Shown here in pieces: positions 1-17,289 of a DNA stretch of 64,000 nucleotides. The DNA comes from Phlebopus portentosus (lineage: Eukaryota; Basidiomycota; Agaricomycetes; Boletales; Boletinellaceae). The stretch spans positions 1 to 64,000 of the forward strand of contig JAYXKI010000002.1 of the NCBI GenBank assembly GCA_037892935.1, read 5' to 3'. Position numbers and translations under genes: made by a program. The stretch's first letter is position 1, and every line of letters begins with the position of its first letter. The notes beneath the pieces are model-generated. The model did no database searches. It saw nothing but the letters and a program-made list of their open reading frames with translations, and was not told where the DNA came from.

Positions 1-101
1 CCTAACCCTAAGCCTAACCCTAAGCCTAACCCTAAGCCTAACCCTAAGCCTAACCCTAAGCCTAACCCTAAGCCTAACCCTAAGCCTAAGCCTAACCCTA
101 A
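1..101. repeat. Terminal telomere repeat tract (12-nt unit)
   Basis: About seven perfect copies of the 12-nt unit CCTAACCCTAAG are followed by a degenerate end. Read on the G-rich strand this alternates TTAGGG with TTAGGC. The C-rich strand runs 5' to 3' inward from base 1, as expected for a left chromosome end. Only about 100 bases are present, so the true terminus may extend further and may be pure TTAGGG. Confidence 0.95.
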
Positions 102-5095: not shown

Positions 5096-5680
<585 letters not shown>

Positions 5681-5689
5681 GGACGAGAT

Positions 5690-6184
5690 GATTTGTAGGT
5701 GCTGGGGGTCGATAGAGTACTAGTGGTGGCAAGAGACAAAGCCGACAAATGCATCCAAGTTCGACACTCGTCACTCGCAGTCTCGCTCGCAAATACAAAT
5801 CTAGTCTAGTTCTTATATATCAACTCTCAAAATCTAATCAAGCACATCTACACTGAAATGCGTATATCTGTGTTCCTAATGTATTTTGTTCTACACAAAT
5901 TTTCTGTGTGATGTAAGACAGATTTTTGCATAGATTTCCTTATCTTAGGTACGTACGGCTACACAAGTATGTGTTAGGGACCTCCAATATGCAGTGATTC
6001 TATGTATTAATGTCAAGTGTTTTGTATTGGGTGTTCAAAGGACCGGTATTTGCCTGTAGTGTAATCATCTGACTTTGACCTAAGTAACCTCTTCGCAATG
6101 AATGCCTTGACATTATATTCGTCCCAAGCGGATCGCAACCGTAGTCTACAAACGTCTATGTACAAAGCTTACCTACTAATAATT
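5690..6184. other. Intergenic, AT-rich; nothing recognised
   Basis: No coding or repeat signal was seen. It lies downstream of the helicase gene (minus strand) and upstream of the Hsp70 fragment, and probably contains the helicase 3' end and terminator region. Confidence 0.5.
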
Positions 6185-9100
6185 CTACTTCCTTTTACGA
6201 CCCCGAATTGCAGCCTTTGTTAATTTCGGAGCTTCTTCAAGACCTGGCCTCATTTTATTCTTCAGTTTCCACATATGGCCAGCCGTCAATCCTCCTTTCT
6301 TTCTCTTGTCTTCCAGAACCCGACTAGGTCCAGCGCAGCTATTTTCCACTTGCTTCTGCTTGTTCCTTTGTATCTCAACTGTAGTGGGCCCGGGTCCAGC
6401 AAGTGCATTTTCCGCTTGCTTCTGCTTGCCCTTCGTAGTTGCTTTAGCGGACGCTGCCTTTTGCTCTTGCACATCAATATGGTCATCAAACGCCGCAATG
6501 TCATAGTCGAATCCACCGTCATCAAATCCGCCGAAATCATCATAATCACCGCTCCTGCCCGTTTTGGGACGGAGCCTGTTGAGGATTTGTAAATCGTTCC
6601 CAAGCAAGCACATAATCTGATCACTGACTTATCTAGTGGCATGTTATCTTCCTCGCTATCGCTGGATTCAGACTCTTCCTTATCACCCGCCTTCGTTTCG
6701 CCCTTGCTCGATTCGTGGGTCTGTCGTGTAGTGATCTTCGCATCATTGCTCTGGCCTTCGTCCTCATCCTCGTCAGACTCAGGTTCCTCTTCCTCGCTGT
6801 CGCTGGATTCAGACTCCTCCTTATCACCCGCCTTCGTTTCGCCCTTGTTCGATTCGTGGGTCTGTTGTGCAGTGCTGTGGCCCTCATCCTCATCCTCGTC
6901 AGACCCAGCCTCCTCTTCGTCTTCCTCTTCGTCTTCTGCAGCGCCCTTCGAGCCGTTGCTCTGGCTTTGGCCCTCGGAAGACAAAACGCTGCTGGTGTTG
7001 GCCTTCTTCGACATATCGTAAGAATCCTCAGTTGGAGGTGATGATTCCGGTTCTGGTGTGTACGAATTCCGGCCATCACTGATGGCGTAGCACTCTGGGA
7101 ATATATCGGGGTCTCGCGCGTCATACGGAAGTGAGCTCGTGCGCCGGCGAGGTCGCAACAATACGACTTGTTCCTTACCCGAATCTGAACCATCCGAGTC
7201 CGAGTCCGAGCTATCGTCAGAGGATGACGCTGTCGCGGTCTGTACGTCCCTCGGCGTCGTCGTTCGCTTTTGCTGTGACTGTGGTGTCAAGCCTGCGACG
7301 GCTGGTTTCGAGGAGGAACGCGCTGTCGACTGCACTGTCGTAGTACGAACGGCGCTCTTCGCGGCTGGCTGTGCTACAGAACGCGGAGTCGCTTGTGTTA
7401 TCGCAGTACGGTTGACCTTCGGTGTGATGGTTTTCTTCCCGCGTCGTGTTTTCGCATCCTCGACATGCTCTTTTCTTGCCTCCTTATCGCGATGTCCCGA
7501 TCTTGTTTCCATATCAATGTCGTCGTAAATCGGCGCGTCATCGTAATCCATTGAGACAAAATCAGGTGAAGCTCTCGCCTTCGTCTTTATTCCCCTCTTC
7601 ACTTTCGCCGAAGATTTCTCGACTAGCAAAGCTGTCGATGGCTCCACGGTATGAACATCTGCTTCCTCGTCAGATCTACCGGATGCCTCTGTCTGAGTGC
7701 TCGAAACTGGCACAGTTGACGGAGTAGACCTGTTGCTTCCTTGACGGGAACGTTTTGCTGAAACCTGTGATGCAGGTTCTCCTGCCTTCCGTTTTGGTCG
7801 CTGACTGGACGACCAAGAACTTTCCTCGGAATCTTCAATCTCGTCTTCTTCGTCTTCGTCGTATTTACCTTATCAAGAGTGAGTGCTATGCAATGATGCC
7901 GTCCTTGGTAACCCGAACTCACCGACAAAAATATTCAGGAGGCGCTCCTTTGTCATAGACATCCTATTTAAGATTTCATCCGTCGTATTCTCGATGCAAG
8001 GCAGGTAAACATGAACCAAATTCTTTTGAGGCTTTCGATGAAGTCTGCCGATGATTTGAGTCCTCTCCTGACCTGTCCACCCGATGTCTGCAAATATGAG
8101 ATGCTGCGCCACATGCAGATTCAGACCAATGGTGCCAACGGCAGAGAGGATTAGAATGCGATGGTTAACTCTGGGATCAGAGAACTTCCGGAGGACCTCA
8201 GCACGCCTCTTCGGAGTCATGCTTCCCTTGCATTCCAGATAATCCAAGCCGTGTAGCTTCAGAGCGCTCCCTAGAGCTGGAAGTGTCTTGACGAACTCGA
8301 CGTAGATGACAACTTTGCACTTCGCCTTCGGATCTTCGTTCACATCAGGGAGGACTAGTTTGTCGTCCTCGTCCACGTAGGGGAAGGGTCCTTCGTCATT
8401 GCGCAAGATACCCATCAGGAGTTTAATGATCAGCTTCCACTTCGTGCTCGACCTCTCCTCAAAGTCTTGCAGGGTTTTATACTCTGGATAAGAGGATTCG
8501 CCCATTTTTATTCCTCGGCATCCAATCCTGCAGCGATACTCAGAAAAGAAACTCTGTTCATTGCGGTTTGGTGGTGCAATTGTTTGGATATTCACGAGCG
8601 ACTCACGTTCGTGAGCAGATCCACGCTTGTCGAAGTGTCATCTCTTCAAATGAAACCGTCCGTTAGCTCAAAGGAGGTGGGAGACGATTTTGCATACTTA
8701 CACATTTGCAACTCTGCGCGCCTCGGCGTCGAATTCCCGACGCTCTTCTGGTTCCATAGCTGCTTTAATGTGGATGATCTCTGGCGCCGCCAACCCGCTG
8801 ATCAATGCCCCATCGAGGCGTTTGGACTCTGCTGTCCTTCGTATGACATACTCTATGAGATATTCGCGCATTTGAAGGACGTGTCGCCGTCGGACGAGTA
8901 GCTTCGCTGCCTCCCTGCCTTGACTGTTGAGAGCCGAATAGTAGTTGGAAAACGAAGCTTCCCCAATTATTGCTTTACGAGCTGCCTCTCTAATCTCTTC
9001 GTCTAAATCACTGTATTCTTTCGATCGGTTGACGCGTCCGATCTCGCGGGCAAGATCTTTCTCCTCCCGGGTCAGTTCATCAACATGCTCGACACCGAGT

Positions 9101-11764
9101 GCGATGCCCAGCGAAACCAAGTCCTAGAATAGAAGACCAACATCAATGTCGTCACCGAATCATCGACAAGTGTCACATACCTTCTCTGCGTTGTGTAGAG
9201 GGGTCGCCGTCATCAACACCAGTGAGGCAGTCCTGAATCGGAGCCCGTACACGGCTCGAAGCATTTGGTTCTCAGAGCGAAGAACGTGAGCCTCGTCAAC
9301 AAACACCAGACTCCATTCTCTCCCGAACACTGTTTGCGACGCACGGGGCTTCATGTCGGGCATCTGGTTTGGGCCGTAATCTCGAGCCTTCTTGTCGGGC
9401 AATGCGACCTTCGCGTCTTCTTGAATAGCCTTGGGTTGACAGTCAGGCAACGAACACGAAACCCATGAATTTTTGAAACGTACCGGATAAGTGCAGATCA
9501 AGATAGTATACGTAGCTTCGTCCTCCATCTTCGCTTTCCATAATTTTTCCCAAAAGTCAGGAATGTCTGCTCTCTTCGATGGATAGACGAATATGTTCCA
9601 AAGGCTATTCTTCAGGAATCGCCTTGCTTCGGTCACCCATTGAGCCGCGAGTGTGGTAGGAACAATGACAAGGATATGACCAGAAGGCAACGTGGATTTC
9701 GGTCTCCAGCCCAGCTTGCCGTCTTCGGGAACTGAACATTCGTCTGTCAGTAAGAGCGGTATGGTAGTCTAGACGTCATTACTTACCTGTAGTAAAGTAA
9801 AGTAGTATGAAAGAATAGAACAAAAAACGAAAGTCAGCATAGCATGTCTTTTGCTTAGCGACATCACTCACCTAAAGATCACGAGCGAAGTTTTACATAC
9901 AGGGTCAATGAAACAGCCGTGTTGTTGGGGACACGACGCACTCACCTTAGAAGGAATGTGAAGTTAGATCAGATCGATCATCAGTGATTCTGTGACATAC
10001 CTAATGGGGGAAGAAACGCCTTCGTGTCGGCTTTAGTTGGACTAGTCAGTAGGTTGTCGTTCTCCTGATGAGATTACCGACTCACTACTTTGAGCACGGT
10101 ATAATCTGACCAAGCTCATCATCATGAATGCTTGCAATGTCTTCCCAACTCCGACTCCGTCTGCAAGAAGGACGTTCTGACCACGAAACATACGCCTGAA
10201 GGCCGATGCTACGCCCACGTATTGGTGCCAATCAGGTTCCAGTCGTCGCAATTGATACTTTTCCACCGCTTCTTCCTCAGTCAGGCCTGCGTCGTTATCT
10301 AGCTCGTCGAAATTCTTGATCTCTGATGGAGCAAGTGCATTGTCGTGAATAAGTTGATTCATGTAAGGAAACCGAACATCATTTGGGGATATCCCGAGTA
10401 ACCCGCGCAGTTCGTCTACGGTGCTGTTACGGAACTCTTCGACACCGATGTCACCGTGTTCGTCTATCCACCCTGAGCCTGTCTCCTCGACCTCTCGTAA
10501 GATTTGCTGTGCTGTAGGTTGGACCCGCTCAAATGTTTCCACGTAAGCTTTCTCAAGCTCGCGAACTGTCTGGGAATCATGCATAGTCTCAAGAATCTTT
10601 TCGAGTTCTTTTCCCAGGCCTGGTTTCAACAAGCAGCCGTTAGAACAACAATACTCCTGATCAGCCCATCTTACCTGTCAGCTCAGCATCTAGATACGAC
10701 CGTTAGAATGGTCTGAATAGTGCAATTAAGATGCTCACCTTTTTCTCCTTTCACGAACTTCACGATTCCGAGCATGTCGCCCTCCATTTGATTCAACTGT
10801 TCCTTCTCGCGTCCGGCAACGAACCTCGATTTGTTGTCCTTCAGCTTCTGGACCTCGGCCATGAGTTTTCGAACAAGCCGGGCTTTTTCCTTACGGTTGC
10901 CGTCCTTCCCGAGTGCCATCAGATCGTTTTTCGTGTTTGTCACGTCGCCTTCCATCTTGTCCGCGACCTTTAGCATACGCTTTCCTTTCTTCAAAAGGCG
11001 ATCCCAGGCCTGCTGTATGACAGTGCTCGCTAGAAAGCCGAGAGGGAAAAGGACCGACTCGAGGTCATCAGATAATGCTTCTGGTCCGAGAAGGAATTCC
11101 ATGAGCTGAGGGTGCAGGTGTGATACGGAAGCTGTCCCTATCGTTTTCTTCGCCGGATCGCGGAGAGGATCCTGTTAAGGACAAGTAAGATGGATTCTTG
11201 TTAATATGAGTGAGGACCACGTACCAATTTGCCCTTGACCTTCTCAGCTGGGTTCCAACTGTAGCCCTGCTTGGTCGCGAGTTGCCATGGAAGCCCATTC
11301 CACTCCTCCAGCTTCGCGTCAATCTTGAATGAAAGCTTTGCCTTTGTCCACATCTTCGCAAATACATCTTGGAAAATTTTCGCGCCTTCGTAGTATGTAT
11401 TACCGCTCGTTGCGGCCGGTTTGATCTTGATGACCGTTTGGAGCTTGCCTGAATCATGGCTTTTCACTGCCTCCTCGAACGCATCGAGGAATGCTCGAAG
11501 TTTTTTGAACTGGGTAAGGTTCGCCGCTTCAGTGCCTTTCAGAATCGGATCGTTCTCCTTCGTTACGGAGTCGATGAAGCCATCGTATGGCCAGCTTTCC
11601 TTTGGAATCCCGAAATGGTCTCTAAACGGTTCGAAACACCAAGGGGCAGGTTGCGACAACTCCCAAACGTCTTCTGAGTACATGCTGCTGTGTCTGGTAC
11701 GGGCCTCTACATAGAGGCAAGCAAAGCCGACTTTCCAGGTCAATTGCAGTGCAGAGGAAGACAT
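6185..11764 (-). CDS. SNF2-family helicase/ATPase, 11 exons, 1578 aa
   Basis: This is a superfamily 2 DNA-dependent ATPase of the SNF2 type, predicted nuclear and acting on chromatin or DNA. My exon model is 11764-11225, 11171-10739, 10689-10675, 10619-10089, 10030-10001, 9731-9484, 9429-9181, 9123-8704, 8641-8607, 8527-7923, 7868-6629 and 6575-6185. It totals 4737 nt with matching phases. Motif I DGVGVGKTLQ lies near residue 480, the DEAH box (VFVDEAHVL) near 645, and motif III LMTATPLHN follows. The C-terminal helicase domain has ILSAVGTIGLNLHVAQHLIF and QIIGRLHRKPQ near residue 1000. Residues 1035-1578 are an acidic/Ser-rich disordered tail with basic clusters ending RKRK. The N-terminal 450 residues are not recognised. 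No internal stop was found, so it looks functional. It could be a subtelomere-specific SNF2 paralogue. The substrate is unknown. Confidence 0.88.
9732..10000 (-). other. Composite intron: four head-to-tail introns with zero-length exons
   Basis: Between the 30-nt exon (10001-10030) and the next exon (starting 9731) lie three internal AG|GT points at 9945/9946, 9871/9872 and 9786/9787. Each follows a branch-like sequence and opens with GTGAGT or GTAAGT. The four pieces are 55, 74, 85 and 55 nt, each a normal intron size for this genome. The reading frame closes whether the block is removed once or in four steps. Confidence 0.7.
10675..10689 (-). other. 15-nt micro-exon of the helicase gene
   Basis: A 15-nt exon coding for about five residues (DAELT plus part of a Gly codon) is needed to join exon 2 to exon 4 in frame. 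It is bounded by CTAG upstream and GTAAGA downstream. Skipping it would also keep the frame, since 15 is a multiple of three, so it could be alternatively included. Confidence 0.6.
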
Positions 11765-12188
11765 GATGTAAGCAGGTAGATCAAAGCGGTGAAGTTAGGA
11801 GCAAAAGTAGGTACTGATGGGGCGTGGGCTTTTCTGTCTCCCCTTATATACATGAGAGTTTGTTTGGTGAACCAAATAAAAGAATCTAAATCTCGTGACT
11901 GAAAAGTTGGTTCTTGATGTGAAGAGTGTCCAAACTGGCTAGACCTAGCGCTTAACGGACTCTTCTTGTCGGCAGGCGGTTGACATCCGCTGCTTCCATC
12001 AATATCGAAGCAAGCGGAAATTAATAGATCTGCTAAAATGGGCCTAGATCGACAAAATGACTCGTTCTGTTGTATGGCCGATGATGTCAGATCAGGGAAG
12101 ACTTCTCAGAAAAAGAAGTTCTGTGAGCATTCTGTGGGCGTCTGAAGTGAAGAATCTCCTAAAAAAGAAGTAGATCTAAAAGCCGTGG
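11765..12188. promoter_or_regulatory. Upstream region of the helicase gene
   Basis: This is non-coding sequence in front of the helicase ATG (11764, minus strand). On the minus strand TGTATATAAGG-type sequence lies about 80-90 bases upstream of the ATG (plus strand CCTTATATACA near 11840), which could be a TATA element. The first palindrome of the array begins at 12189, about 425 bases upstream of the start codon. Confidence 0.45.
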
Positions 12189-12478
12189 CGTCGTGGAGGT
12201 GACGACATGTACGATAGGCGACCGTCGCTTCCCAAAACAGATAGACGCCCAGGCTAAAACACGCGTCATTATCCGAGAATAGTCAACTACAGATTGTCAG
12301 AATTATCGATAAACAAACGACATGCTGAATTTGAGAAATCCTTTGATTCATAAGTTGTGTTACCCGTGTCGTGGATTTAGCGACATACATACGTTTGTCC
12401 TCCTGTTTTGAAGTCCTGATATAAAACAATGTGGATAAGAGAAGGTACATTTAGATCAGTAATTTCGAGATAAGGATT

Positions 12479-12740
12479 GGCACTAAAAAAAGTTGCTTTT
12501 GCCACAGTGTCGTGACTCTAACGACACTGGGCACATAGATGATTTTCACTAAAAAAAGATGCACCCGCCACAGTGTCGTTGCTCTAATGACACTGAGCAG
12601 TGCACGAGACGAATACACCAAAACTAAAAAAAATGTTGCATTTGCCATGGTGTCGTAACTGTAACGACACTGGGCAGTGCACGAGATAATTGGCATTAAT
12701 AAAAGTTTCATCTGCCACAACGGTGTCGTAGTTCACTTCA
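12479..12740. repeat. Four tandem units of about 67-74 bp
   Basis: Units start at about 12481, 12548, 12622 and 12692. Each has an A-rich run (CACTAAAAAAAG), a TGC...GCCA segment, one TGTCGT dyad (the fourth keeps only a half-site) and a GGGCAGTGCACGAGA-like tail. Spacers of the dyads differ between units. Confidence 0.7.
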
Positions 12741-13076
12741 CTTTGTGAAGTTCTTTTCTTCGCCTCTGTAGCCTCTGTAACAGTCTTCCAAATATGAAGT
12801 TGGTCAAGACATAGGATCACGCAGACAAGGCCTTCGTTGCTGTAGCGACACTAGTGTCAATTCAACTTTTGAGTGGGGGGATGTTTATAAAATAAGCTAC
12901 ACAAACATGTCGTCACTACAACGACACTGGTATAGTGAGTGGGGGTTCATGAAACGAGAGTGCAATAGAGCGTGGCTTCTTGAGAAGGGAGTAAGACGGA
13001 GAAATGTTCGAGGCCCAAACACGTTGTCGTGAGTGGAACGACATTGGTCTTGTTCAAAGAGAAAGCAGATCTGGCC

Positions 13077-13603
13077 TTAATACCTTGCGCGCGGTTGGTA
13101 ACGCTGATCGTCTTCATCCTCATCCTCTTCCTCCTCGTACCTGGTCCTTTTCACGAGAGCATTGCTGTTCACGTTACCAAGTACCGTTCCCTTCCTAGGG
13201 AAGTACACCTCGTTTGTGTAATCCATACGCGACTTGTACTGTGGATTGAAAACAAGAACAATTGCCGGACCATTGATTCTTGAAGCAGGATAAACGCCTT
13301 GCCGTGTGGTCTGTCGCGTATCGAACGGTCGTTCCTTCTGCGCTAGAGGAAGCCATGTGAACTTCTGGTCGATGACTTTCAGAATTTGATTTCGGAACGC
13401 GAGGAAGTCGTTCTGGTTCCTGGTAGTCTCTTTGATAGCATGGTACCATTGGAGATACCGAAGACCTCCCCATCCTTGAGCGACATAGGGTTTGGTCCCA
13501 ACTGAGTAAACACGTAAAATAATTTGTTTGTGAAGAAAAGAATAATAGGGGGGTGGTGCGTCGTCGGGGTGACATCATGACACTCTGAGACTAGCACTCC
13601 CAT
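13077..13603 (-). CDS. Small protein of unknown family, acidic tail
   Basis: I do not recognise this protein. The final exon (13501-13077) is a strong open frame that includes KPYVAQGWGGLRYLQWYHAI, FTWLPLAQKERPFDTRQTTR, GPAIVLVFNPQYKSRMDYTN and a C-terminal tail EEEEDEDEDDQ. A pyrimidine-rich 3' splice site at 13502-13504 joins it to an exon ending at 13582. The first usable ATG is at 13603, giving 148 residues. The exon continues open to 13636, so the true start may be further upstream. A TATA-like TTTTTATAGG (minus) lies near 13780, next to a dyad at 13742. The gene sits inside the palindrome array, between the helicase and exonuclease genes, which suggests it belongs to the same unit. Codon-like conservation was not tested. 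Confidence 0.5.
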
Positions 13604-13892
13604 TGATCGAGACACCCAACGTTCACGGAATCTTTCCTGTGAAGAGAAACGCAGTTGAGAAAAGGATGTTACATACTTGATACGACACTGATCCGGGAGA
13701 GAAATGACTCGACAAGAGCCAGAATGGAAAGATGACAAGTGTCGTTGAGCTAGCGACACTTCCTTTAGGCGCCTATAAAAATTGTAGCGTCAATGTGAAG
13801 AGAAGCCTCAGTCTAGAGAAAGACCCCACTGGTCTTCTAGTGACTTGAGACCATTTAGATCCGGGTGAGTAAATGACTCAACTTCGCGTGAA

Positions 13893-14700
13893 GAGCGGAA
13901 ATTAATCATAGAACTGCGCAATGTCGACCGATCAACGACACTGGATAAAAAAGGTCTTATAGACGCTCACTCGACTGCGCATGTCGTTAAATTGACGACA
14001 TTCATTTAGTTCCAGTCCATTTAGACGCCCATAAAAGAATTTCTCACCTTCTCATCGGTGACTCGACGACGACAACTGATCGCATCAAGAACTGAATGAG
14101 CGTCTACGCGCGTCGATGCGTTCACGACACTCCGATCAAGTGAAAGTTATTCCCCAAGAGGAGATCGAAAATTAGTCATAGAACTGCGCAGTGTCGTTCG
14201 ATCAACGACACTAGATAAAAATAGTCTTATAGACGCTCGCTTGCTTAGTTTTCTCAATTGATGTCCGTGATTCCTTGTACTTCTTTGATTTCGGACTGCG
14301 CATGTCGTCGAATTGACGACATTCGTTTGGTTCCAGACCACGTAGACGCCCGTGAAAAATTTCTCATCATCCATTGGTGACTCGATGACGACAACTGATC
14401 CGGGTTAGAAGTGAATCTGTAAAAAGTTGATGTGAAGAGCGAGCGTCCACTGGTGTCGTTGGATTCACGACACTCCTATCCTACATAAAATTTTCAAAAA
14501 AGAATGCCGCTGGATAAGAACTTCATAAACGCCGAGCCCTTGCTTGGTTTTCTCAATTGATGTCCGTGATTCCTAGTACTTTTATGATGTCGGAGAATGG
14601 ACGACATTAATTAGAAGCTCTTTAAGCGCTCCTCCCGATCTTTTTCATTTTTGCTGTGAAGAGAACCGCAGGAGAAGAATACGGCGTCGCTGATACAACG
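13893..14700. repeat. Direct repeat of about 190-240 bp, two copies plus a partial third
   Basis: Copy 1 (about 13893-14080) and copy 2 (about 14163-14400) share TCATAGAACTGCGCA, the dyads, TCTTATAGACGCTC, TTGGTTCCAG-like and GACGACAACTGATC segments. Copy 2 has an extra block with TTCTCAATTGATGTCCGTGA that recurs in a third partial copy at about 14518-14600. Each full copy contains two dyads. No gene was seen here. Confidence 0.7.
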
Positions 14701-14894
14701 ACATGAGTCGACTAACATATCCGAGTACAAAAGATAGATTCTCAGTGTATGTTTTTTCCATCATAATCTCAATCTCAATACCATGTGCTTTTTGTTTGGG
14801 AGCGCAAGTATCAGCTTTTTTCTTTATCAGACATTTCTTAGTTGATGTTTAGATTCGATTTCGCCGAAGATACACCGTGCGTGCTGCAGACGTC

Positions 14895-15784
14895 ATGTAC
14901 ATCACGACGCTGGAAGACGTCGAGCCAGCCGTATTCCGGCTTGTCTCGTCTTCCCCGGGATACATTGGGTTTGACCTGGAAAAAGGTGGCCCTTCCCGTT
15001 CTGTTGCAACTCTCCAGATTGCAACGTCCGACGTCGTCCTCGTCATTCAGACGGCAATGTTCTCTGGTAATTCCATTCGATCAAACTCTTAAACTCGAAC
15101 ACTGATTACTTTTTTGTGATCTATTTCACTTTTAGAGAGCCTGCCTCCCAAAACCCTCCCGAGTTGCCTCGTTGACCTTCTCAACAATCCCGAGATCGAG
15201 AAGGTTGGAGTCGGGATAAGAAGTATTTTTTATTTTTATTTATTTTTTTGGACTCGGACATTCTTGCTAACTGACTGTAACTAATAGGTGATGCAATGTG
15301 CTTGAAGAGGGACTTCGATGTCGACGTCATGGCCTGCATCGAACTGTCATATGTCGCGAAGTGCGTAGAGGCTGCATGGCCTTCAAGAAAAGTCCTTTTT
15401 CGTCGACGGCTGCAAACTCCGAGGTGGTGGTTCTCACCACCAAAAATCCGACCTTTTGCGCACGAGATCGCCCTAGCTGAACTTACCAAACATTTTTTGG
15501 AGGTTAAGCTGGACAAAACAAGGGGCGCGAAAGATTGGACAAGGGAGTTGACTGAGAGTGAACTCGATTGTAAGTATTTTAAATTGCTTCTGGATTGTGA
15601 GATTTTGTAATTGTTATGCATTTCTCATTTTACAGATGCTGCTTGCGACGCAGACGCTGGTTACGTCCTTTACAGCCATCTGCGGCGAAAACCTCGTTTC
15701 ACAGGTCTGCCACAGAGCAAATATAGATTTGACATTGTGGGAGGTAAGGCAATGTTGAACGGTCAGAAATGGAAACCGCGTTGA
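14895..15784 (+). CDS. WRN-type DEDDy 3'-5' exonuclease, 229 aa
   Basis: This is a DnaQ-fold 3'-5' exonuclease of the RNase D/WRN type, predicted to remove 3' nucleotides from DNA or RNA with two metal ions. The exons 14895-15066, 15136-15222, 15288-15569 and 15636-15784 total 690 nt with matching phases. Exo I is YIGFDLEKGG (Asp, Glu). Exo II is in KVGVGI...DAMCLKRDFDV. Exo III is DYAACDADAGYVLYSHL, giving the DEDDy Tyr-x3-Asp. All catalytic residues are visible. The protein is the bare domain, with no helicase, HRDC or zinc finger. ATG 14895 was chosen as the first in-frame ATG; an extra upstream exon is possible. It lies between dyad clusters and about 3 kb from the SNF2 gene, so nuclease and ATPase may act together. 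Confidence 0.88.
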
Positions 15785-16000
15785 ATGTCTAGATAAAAAT
15801 ATGAAATAAAAGTTGAGCTCAGATTTCAGGTTTTAATCAGCCACTTGATCAACGATCCTTGAATTTCATCATTGCCCACTTGACAGAACTTTTTTGTTAA
15901 TTCAGCAAGACAAGTGTAGAATTATATGATGTAAAGACATTGTGTAGTCAGAAAAATTGAAGTGACTTGACGGACAAGATTCACTCTAAAGAGCCATTGG
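15785..16000. other. Non-coding sequence after the exonuclease
   Basis: Short stretch between the exonuclease stop codon and the third dyad cluster. No open frame or repeat was recognised. Confidence 0.5.
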
Positions 16001-16501
16001 TGTCGTTGAACTCACGACGAAGGGAGAACAGGGTTCTTACAATTTATGTCAATCATACAATTAGTTCAGGTGCTGCTTAGAACTGTCGCACATTTAGCTT
16101 TTCTGCTTGTGTCGTTGGACTGACGACACCTCGCACAAGGTCGTTTGAAACACTTAAATAGCTAGAGCTTACATCAAGTCATTGTTAACGACTTGAACAG
16201 AGTTCTTGTTCTGATGACAAGGATTCACACCCGTAAGCGACCAAATCTTCTTACCTCAGTTTAACGGTTGTAAAACTATGATGGTATTTATTGACGGAGT
16301 TGTTCAATCCACAAGTGTCTGAATTCATAACCAAAGAGCACTCGTGTCGTGGACTCTACGACACTGAGTGCACAGGCCTTGTCGTTCAGGCTATGACGTG
16401 GAGAGGATGACACATGTCGTTTATTCCACACATTGTTTGTGCAGGCCAGTTCGGAGAGTCCGCGGCCTGTCTAAAGAACTTCTTGTCGCAGACAGTTCGA
16501 A

Positions 16502-16530
16502 GCCTAACCCTAAGCCTAACCCTAAGCCTA
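16502..16530. repeat. Interstitial telomere repeat, same orientation as the terminus
   Basis: Two copies of CCTAACCCTAAG plus CCTA, the same 12-nt unit as at base 1 and on the same strand. It directly follows the palindrome region (AGACAGTTCGAAG) and directly precedes AT-rich subtelomeric sequence resembling 102-1059. The orientation fits a buried former chromosome end rather than a head-to-head fusion. Confidence 0.9.
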
Positions 16531-17289
16531 TGTAATCGTGTTATATAATATGATTATGTAATCTTTTATAAATTGTTTTGTCATCTTACTTCCTGATTTA
16601 GTAATTATTCTATATTGTTTAAATATTTACATATACTTTCTTTTCTTTTCTAGGGTTACACTTTCTTTAACAATATTAAATATATTTTAAGTTATATTTT
16701 ACTCTATTTTATATATCTTTAATTTTTATCTTATCTAAATTTTACTCCTTTAAGTATCACTCTAGTTCTTATATCATATAATATAAATGTAATTAAATTT
16801 AAAACAGCTTATATTTTATACACTATATGCAAATATGTATTTCTTAATTTTCTACTTAATTAAGCTATTATATAAAGTCAGACAGCCACCATTATACTCA
16901 TGGAATTATTCTGCACAAAAAAAGTATATAAACTATCACATGTCACACTTAGTCACATCACAAATTGTAAGTCACTCTATCACCTTAGCTGTTTGTCACA
17001 CCCGATAAAACTGATATGGGAAAAATAGAATGTGTAGTCAGAATCTCTCAAGTCAGATAATTGTAAAGGCTCCTCTATTCATTGCAATTGCACATCTCTC
17101 TGTGCGACATCTCTCTGTGCCAGATCCTTCTGATGTCATTAACAGATTGGTCCACAGATATTTCTATGATATGCAAGTACTCCCGCAATACTTTGCACAT
17201 CATCTATGAACTCGTGAGCTGTGGGTAAGACGGCATTGTGCATATTTGGAATTCTGAAATGTGCGCAGTCAGCGGCCAATGTTCCTTCC
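16531..17289. other. Second copy of the AT-rich subtelomeric sequence
   Basis: AT-rich and without a gene. It begins TATGTAATC...TTATATAATATGATTATGTAATC, like the start of the terminal copy, and shares the TTATCTTATCTAAATTTTAC block near 16725. Beyond about 17.1 kb the CSE1 pseudogene begins. Confidence 0.65.

Follow-up and report, generated by a model that had tools for sequence, protein, structure and literature searches.

The Y' elements of yeast and the telomere-linked helicase genes are subtelomeric helicase elements of fungi. To our knowledge, the way in which subtelomeric elements maintain their copies and move is poorly understood outside yeast, and we know of no fungal subtelomeric helicase element that carries dyad sites of the kind described here. 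The family of repeats in oriP of Epstein-Barr virus (EBV) is, in the part of the account consulted, an even array of palindromic sites, with outlying sites, for the dimeric element-encoded protein EBNA1, and has roles in replication, partition and transcription. The oriP repeats have a period of 30 bp and a site of 18 bp. The telomere-associated retrotransposons of fungi, MoTeR and FoTeR, are described in the extract consulted as having internalised telomere repeats and relics adjoining the element (PMC8381367). The present study concerns a stretch of 64,000 nucleotides at the left end of a Phlebopus portentosus chromosome (contig JAYXKI010000002.1, positions 1 to 64,000; hereafter the window), in which the dyad TGTCGT-N7-ACGACA recurs within one copy of a subtelomeric element. 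Our analysis of the sequence indicates that the dyads are probably the binding sites of a homodimeric or two-headed DNA-binding protein which serves only this element. Several features point to this: the half-site is symmetric and the geometry fixed, exact dyads occur only within the element family, the arms are constrained and do not covary, the sites are placed in introns and between genes, and a diverged paralogue has a site of its own.

That the dyads are real and non-random, as the first-pass annotation had proposed, is borne out by their number. There are 10 exact copies in the window where shuffled sequences predict 0.01, and 29 copies with up to 2 mismatches against 2.6 expected. Of these, 22 are at 12189-16412 and 7 outside it, five of the latter in the helicase gene. 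The original count of twenty is therefore a fair one when mismatches are allowed, although only 10 copies are exact. In the whole assembly of 38.4 Mb there are 84 exact dyads at spacer 7, while exact arms are found 14 times over spacers 0-6 combined (7 lengths) and 30 times over spacers 8-20 (13 lengths), which gives a background of about 2 per spacer length. In the 14.3-kb unit at the right end of C16, TGTCG-Nd-CGACA occurs 27 times at d=9, which is the N7 dyad, and at most three times at every other d from 0 to 60. A chance origin is rejected by these counts, as is enrichment at any other spacer within the ranges covered, and the proposed check on spacer lengths comes out for spacer 7 alone. 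Every one of the 84 exact dyads belongs to one of six related units in the subtelomeres or to a single relic, and none is found outside the element family. The units are at the left ends of C1 and C2 (the window), at the right end of C3, where two occur in tandem, and at the right ends of C16 and C17, and the relic is at C8 left. It had also been proposed that enrichment only beside paralogues of the window genes would support a system; such a placement holds for the 81 exact sites in gene-bearing units but not for the remaining three, which are in the C8 relic without a gene match. Enrichment at spacer 7 only, together with 81 of 84 exact sites in gene-bearing units, favours a dedicated system. 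These units represent a single element in six copies, which occupy five chromosome ends; the long alignments listed between them are mostly 87-99% identical. Each of them has a SNF2-type helicase and a 3'-5' exonuclease, and two of them also encode a ~974-aa protein.

A diverged relative of the ~974-aa gene and of the helicase is present on the minus strand at C8:1805-1815k. Protein identity is 30% for exon 1, 29% for exon 2 and 27% for exon 3 (exons 1 and 2 of the paralogue being placed by homology), and 28-43% for the helicase pieces. A Pfam scan of the paralogue at a lax cut-off gave the expected SNF2 match and one SOUL match at E 0.074, which is far below the cut-off of that family and is taken as noise; no exonuclease match was found in 50 kb around the locus. 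The window motif is absent from these 50 kb within 1 mismatch, and occurs at 2 places with 2 mismatches. The paralogue has instead a dyad of its own (family B), TTCGGCA-N3-TGCCGAA, which occurs five times in 14 kb, each time with one mismatch, and is absent from 20 shuffles and from 36 kb of flanking DNA. Three of the sites are in intron 1 of its relative of the ~974-aa gene and two beyond the 3' end of that gene. In the whole genome 15 matches with up to 1 mismatch were found, nine of them in three clusters: five at the paralogue locus, three at C8:1412.9-1414.9k and one at C12:840.8k; the remaining six are about the chance level, by arithmetic. The cluster at C8:1412.9-1414.9k adjoins an old interstitial telomere and has 7 family-B sites with up to 3 mismatches, and the element proteins have no match at C8:1412153-1414930. 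A possible small multi-exon gene begins at C8:1414456, without relatives among the element loci compared. On C12 two family-B dyads (up to 2 mismatches) form a pair at 840777 and 840853, at a distance of 76 bp. A telomere-like string is found some 300 bp from them, and the 2.5 kb examined contain no recognisable gene of the element. Twelve family-B sites and the window sites share R, T, G/T, T, C and G at distances of 10 down to 5 bp from the axis, so that an outer half-site RTKTCG is common to both families, whereas the inner bases differ (TTGA in the window, GCA in family B). Two of the shared positions are outside the pattern used in the family-B search, namely T at 9 bp (17/24, p 2e-5) and R at 10 bp (19/24, p 0.003). 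The shared outer half-site and the changed inner bases of a paralogue indicate that the system is older than the window copies, and that its site diverged in step with the element.

The distribution of the sites bears directly on the best of the rival explanations, in which the dyads are bound by a transcription or chromatin factor of the host, such as one that silences or insulates subtelomeric repeats, and the element has just accumulated its sites. Subtelomeres are commonly silenced, which counts for such a factor, and so does the persistence of dyads in units without the ~974-aa gene and in a relic without element genes. However, a host factor should have host targets, and not one of the 84 exact dyads is found outside the element family. 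The different inner bases in the paralogous element also argue against it, as do the nine of 15 family-B matches in three clusters, one of them with the paralogue genes; the two gene-less clusters of family B can be read either way. On this evidence we consider a host factor unlikely.

A second alternative is that the dyads are functionless mobile palindromic mini-elements or by-products of tandem amplification. It is true that part of the dyads form a tandem array with a period of 35 bp and that some sites within a unit share their flanks, but 33 sites can be selected of which no two agree at 26 or more of 43 positions, the core included. Comparison between copies also speaks against this explanation. 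Out of 225 site pairs attempted 156 could be aligned, the rest being presumably mostly in the deleted part, and an indel was found in only one of the 156 pairs, which was excluded from the substitution counts. Differences were observed at 22 of 1860 arm positions (1.2%), 62 of 1085 spacer positions (5.7%), 214 of 6141 flank positions and 8 of 1240 core positions (Fisher p 5e-12 and 3e-8 for the arm, spacer and flank differences), so that the arms change at about one-fifth of the spacer rate. In addition, the C8 left-end relic has kept its three exact dyads, which adjoin a sequence 72-77% identical to three other units (C8:11030-11291). No helicase, ~974-aa-protein or exonuclease match was found at this relic, and for the exonuclease the first 30 kb are without a match. 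There is a hint that the constraint is relaxed in deletion copies, in which 20/408 arm positions are polymorphic against 114/1360 in the flanks, the values for full-length copies being 4/516 and 59/1720; with p 0.10 for the arms and 0.055 for the core this is suggestive only. Altogether an origin as mini-elements or amplification by-products is very unlikely.

The first-pass annotation had left two readings of the symmetry side by side, selection on a symmetric protein site or on a hairpin with a 7-nt loop. The half-site in 56 non-redundant sites is RTGTCGT, with an almost invariant core GTCG. The spacers do differ in sequence, as was first described, but they are not random and show a preference for TGA-N-TCA. 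Watson-Crick pairing of mirrored positions in these 56 sites is not in excess over column shuffles in arm or loop (p at least 0.35). The largest value in arm or loop is at arm position 6, with 35 pairs against 34.6 expected (p 0.50). Since sites were selected with up to 2 arm mismatches, double changes in the arm are disfavoured in this set, while flank and loop positions are unbiased. As the arm pairs do not covary, the dyad is better read as a symmetric protein site than as a hairpin; the symmetry, the fixed spacing, the arms kept between copies and the missing covariation all fit the former. The least probable alternative is that the dyads act as RNA hairpins or DNA cruciforms, for instance processed from introns and untranslated regions: single dyads can fold as short stems (four examples), dyads occur in introns, and at -2 and -3 in the flanks pairing is weakly in excess, but changes in the arms are uncompensated (39/56 pairs at position 1 against 41.1 expected, 15 against 19.0 at the loop edge), the paralogue has kept the outer bases and changed the inner ones, which fits contact with a protein, and a search of 11700-16700 gave no Rfam match, by which identity with an RNA family is rejected.

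The genes of the element are best described from the window and from its full-length copies. The helicase gene is on the minus strand at about 6185..11764 and has several introns, with matches to SNF2-rel_dom and Helicase_C on separate exons. It was found in all six units and is under purifying selection, with a pN/pS of 0.07-0.13 between the window and the five other copies (the gapped exon piece h1 was dropped in all five and h5 in one). The exonuclease gene is on the plus strand at 14895..15785 and has 4 exons, with splice sites placed by reading, coding for 229 aa; the joined exons match DNA_pol_A_exo1 with E 1.1e-16, and matches are present in all six units. What was first taken as a separate gene of unknown function turns out to be the C-terminal remnant of the much longer ~974-aa-protein gene. 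The remnant open reading frame (ORF), at 13077..13574 on the minus strand, consists of the C-terminal 134 aa and 31 aa across a junction near 13479, and we take it to have arisen by a deletion of 6.7 kb with that junction. Its residues 32-165 belong to a frame of 501 aa that is open in the C16 unit and in the inner C3 unit, and which in our reading is exon 3 of a gene for about 974 aa. The exons are at L019:4735-5190, 6053-7074 and 7138-8584, again with splice sites placed by reading, and exon 2 was found only in the C16 unit, the inner C3 unit and the C8 paralogue. One protein of a large database is 49% identical to the 501-aa frame over 91% of its length, and a search of viral contigs gave no match. 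In the full-length units an HSP70-like fragment is present between the exonuclease and the ~974-aa-protein gene. Such subtelomeric fragments are seen at C16:1332014-1332985 and at 5138-5805 of the window, the latter through an antisense Pfam match.

Placement of the dyads relative to the genes was counted in the C16 copy over 1327900-1339500, outside the helicase, for sites with up to 2 mismatches. Of 44 sites, 30 are intergenic and 11 are intronic, within the ~974-aa-protein gene, whose introns total 925 nt; an intron of 63 nt holds one exact dyad. The 2,924 nt of exons of the same gene contain two sites, both with 2 mismatches; one further site is in the HSP70-like stretch, and the exonuclease gene has none. 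In the window the first group of dyads is made up of exact copies at 12508..12526, 12651..12669, 12908..12926 and 13025..13043, copies with 1 mismatch at 12189..12207, 12367..12385 and 12574..12592, and one with 2 mismatches at 12304..12322; no strand is assigned to any of the dyads. A degenerate copy with 3 mismatches at 12832..12850 overlaps the 12-bp palindrome GACACTAGTGTC at 12847-12858, which had been singled out for its reversed arms. As the palindrome starts in the right arm of this degenerate dyad, it is not counted as an element of its own. The second group has exact copies at 13982..14000, 14192..14210, 14303..14321 and 14454..14472, copies with 1 mismatch at 13740..13758, 13922..13940 and 14588..14606, and copies with 2 mismatches at 14111..14129 and 14685..14703. 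The third lies 3' of the exonuclease and contains a copy with 1 mismatch at 16001..16019, exact copies at 16110..16128 and 16345..16363, a copy with 2 mismatches at 16380..16398, which is 35 bp after the preceding one, and an overlapping copy, also with 2 mismatches, at 16394..16412. The dyad at 16345..16363 opens an array with a period of 35 bp. Such an array is found at the inner end of the element by autocorrelation in C1 and C16 and by the site gaps in five arrays, and the third window group is its truncated start, the full array being present in the five other copies. The description of three clusters around three promoters is accordingly only partly right, because full-length copies have sites in introns as well and the third cluster follows the exonuclease instead of preceding it. 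Similarly, the sites do stop at the interstitial telomere (16500..16530, plus strand, from the sequence and comparison with the C1 copy), but this reflects truncation of the unit within the array, at about 16500, and in the other copies the array continues.

In the five array-bearing units the array leads into a telomere-like tract whose end is CCCTATAACCC(T), and this tract adjoins different telomere-adjacent DNA in each unit except the outer C3 unit. There it joins non-telomeric subtelomeric repeat DNA of the inner unit, a match made by eye. At C3:3036.4k the outer tandem unit is fused directly to the subtelomeric repeat of the inner unit with no regular telomere between them, as after the repair of a broken end. 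The window itself begins with a terminal telomere tract (1..100, plus strand, from the sequence) made of the repeated 12-mer CCTAACCCTAAG, and the same repeat is present at other contig ends among those listed. The telomere is a regular 12-mer, in which TTAGGG alternates with TTAGGC, both in the window and at the contig ends listed; by title, none of the matching papers listed for the 12-mer string concerns telomeres. Elsewhere in the genome, at C4:1572979, C12:1540068, C15:130015 and C18:18208, two pairs of related 22-mers (TGTCGTTAAAC..., spacer 10) were observed, perhaps belonging to a transposon.

How a dedicated binder could work may be pictured as follows. The binder is probably encoded by the element itself, and the ~974-aa protein would be the foremost candidate, since, along with the helicase, it is common to both families. 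Bound at promoter and intron-1 sites it could control the genes of the element in an operator-like manner. Loaded on the 35-bp-period array at the inner end, it could help the element to replicate, to persist or to spread between chromosome ends, a role of the maintenance or barrier kind. Spread itself seems to be of the repair type, in which one chromosome end is copied onto another, damaged end, and the copying may start in the telomere-like tract adjoining the array. In a bolder version, the element would be a parasite of chromosome ends, autonomous and equipped with a self-recognition code of its own. The ~974-aa protein, as a binder of a new family, would mark its non-coding parts, introns included; the 35-bp array by the telomere-like tract would be an origin, a partition site or a fork barrier that seeds copies; and the two site families, RTGTCGT-TGA and RTKTCG-GCA, would represent incompatibility groups formed as binder and site diverged together. 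We offer this bolder version tentatively, as a doubtful though conceivable extension.

Several observations weigh against a dedicated, element-encoded binder. No binder emerged from the searches with the ~974-aa protein, which has no Pfam match above chance. Of two PDB profile searches with it one gave no match and the other three matches at E 0.14-0.16, which are taken as noise, and structure models gave no usable fold (pLDDT 29 for exon 3 and 37 for exon 2). Four of the six units are without most of the ~974-aa gene and still have dyads, so that a binder encoded there must act in trans. The unit copies share ancestry, and therefore the substitution counts between them are not independent. 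The weak excess of flank pairing in the 56 sites (p 0.019 at -2, 0.065 at -3 and 0.077 at -7, uncorrected for 15-21 positions) gave p values at -2 and -3 of 0.007 and 0.033 in one stricter set and of 0.094 and 0.11 in another. Finally, the scarcity of dyads in exons is a statement about the ~974-aa-protein gene and the exonuclease, and the helicase gene of the window has five dyads with 2 mismatches (7336, 9652, 9845, 9920 and 10055), some of them between reading frames and at least two within them.

In this element the set of sites is self-contained, two site families have diverged within a single genome, copies are present both in full length and with deletions, and one protein is without a known family. 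These features make it possible to ask directly whether an element protein reads a private code and whether that code drives expression, replication or spread. If the proposal is true, it would provide a new family of DNA-binding proteins and a pair of sites without cross-talk. Among the titles listed from the published literature none was found on the motif, the element or SNF2 subtelomeric elements, a search of titles only, by which absence from print is not shown.

In its geometry the dyad equals the IR7 sites of plant auxin response factors (ARFs), which in the portion of the source consulted are facing TGTCNN half-sites with a 7-bp spacer, bound by a dimer (PMC10690724). This likeness, seen here in a fungal setting, is probably one of convergence. 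A relative of the B3-type ARFs is weakly rejected, as no B3 match was found in the genome, but no control genome gave a match either. With oriP and EBNA1, as far as the account consulted goes, the element shares a regular array of palindromic sites together with outlying ones; it differs in having a 35-bp period and a 19-bp site, in being chromosomal and not episomal as far as seen, and in that no EBNA1-like protein was found here. The internalised telomere repeats and the relics beside the element resemble those in the extract on MoTeR and FoTeR. The gene content is different, however, being a helicase, an exonuclease and the ~974-aa protein, and no reverse transcriptase was found in a scan of part of the unit ORFs. 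The system would work in the manner of an EBNA1-oriP array with outlying sites, placed in a Y'-like subtelomeric element. In overall organisation the element resembles the Y' elements and the telomere-linked helicases, which are likewise subtelomeric and multi-copy, have a helicase gene and, as at the right end of C3, occur in tandem at one end; like Y' elements, the units are joined at their inner joins to internal telomere or telomere-like repeats, the outer C3 unit excepted. Identity with the telomere-linked RecQ helicases (TLH) is rejected, since Pfam gave SNF2-rel_dom and Helicase_C, with no RecQ family among the matches listed, although a subtelomeric helicase is common to both. Unlike the Y' elements and telomere-linked helicases, the present element combines a helicase of the SNF2 type with an exonuclease, the 974-aa protein and a dense set of private dyads.

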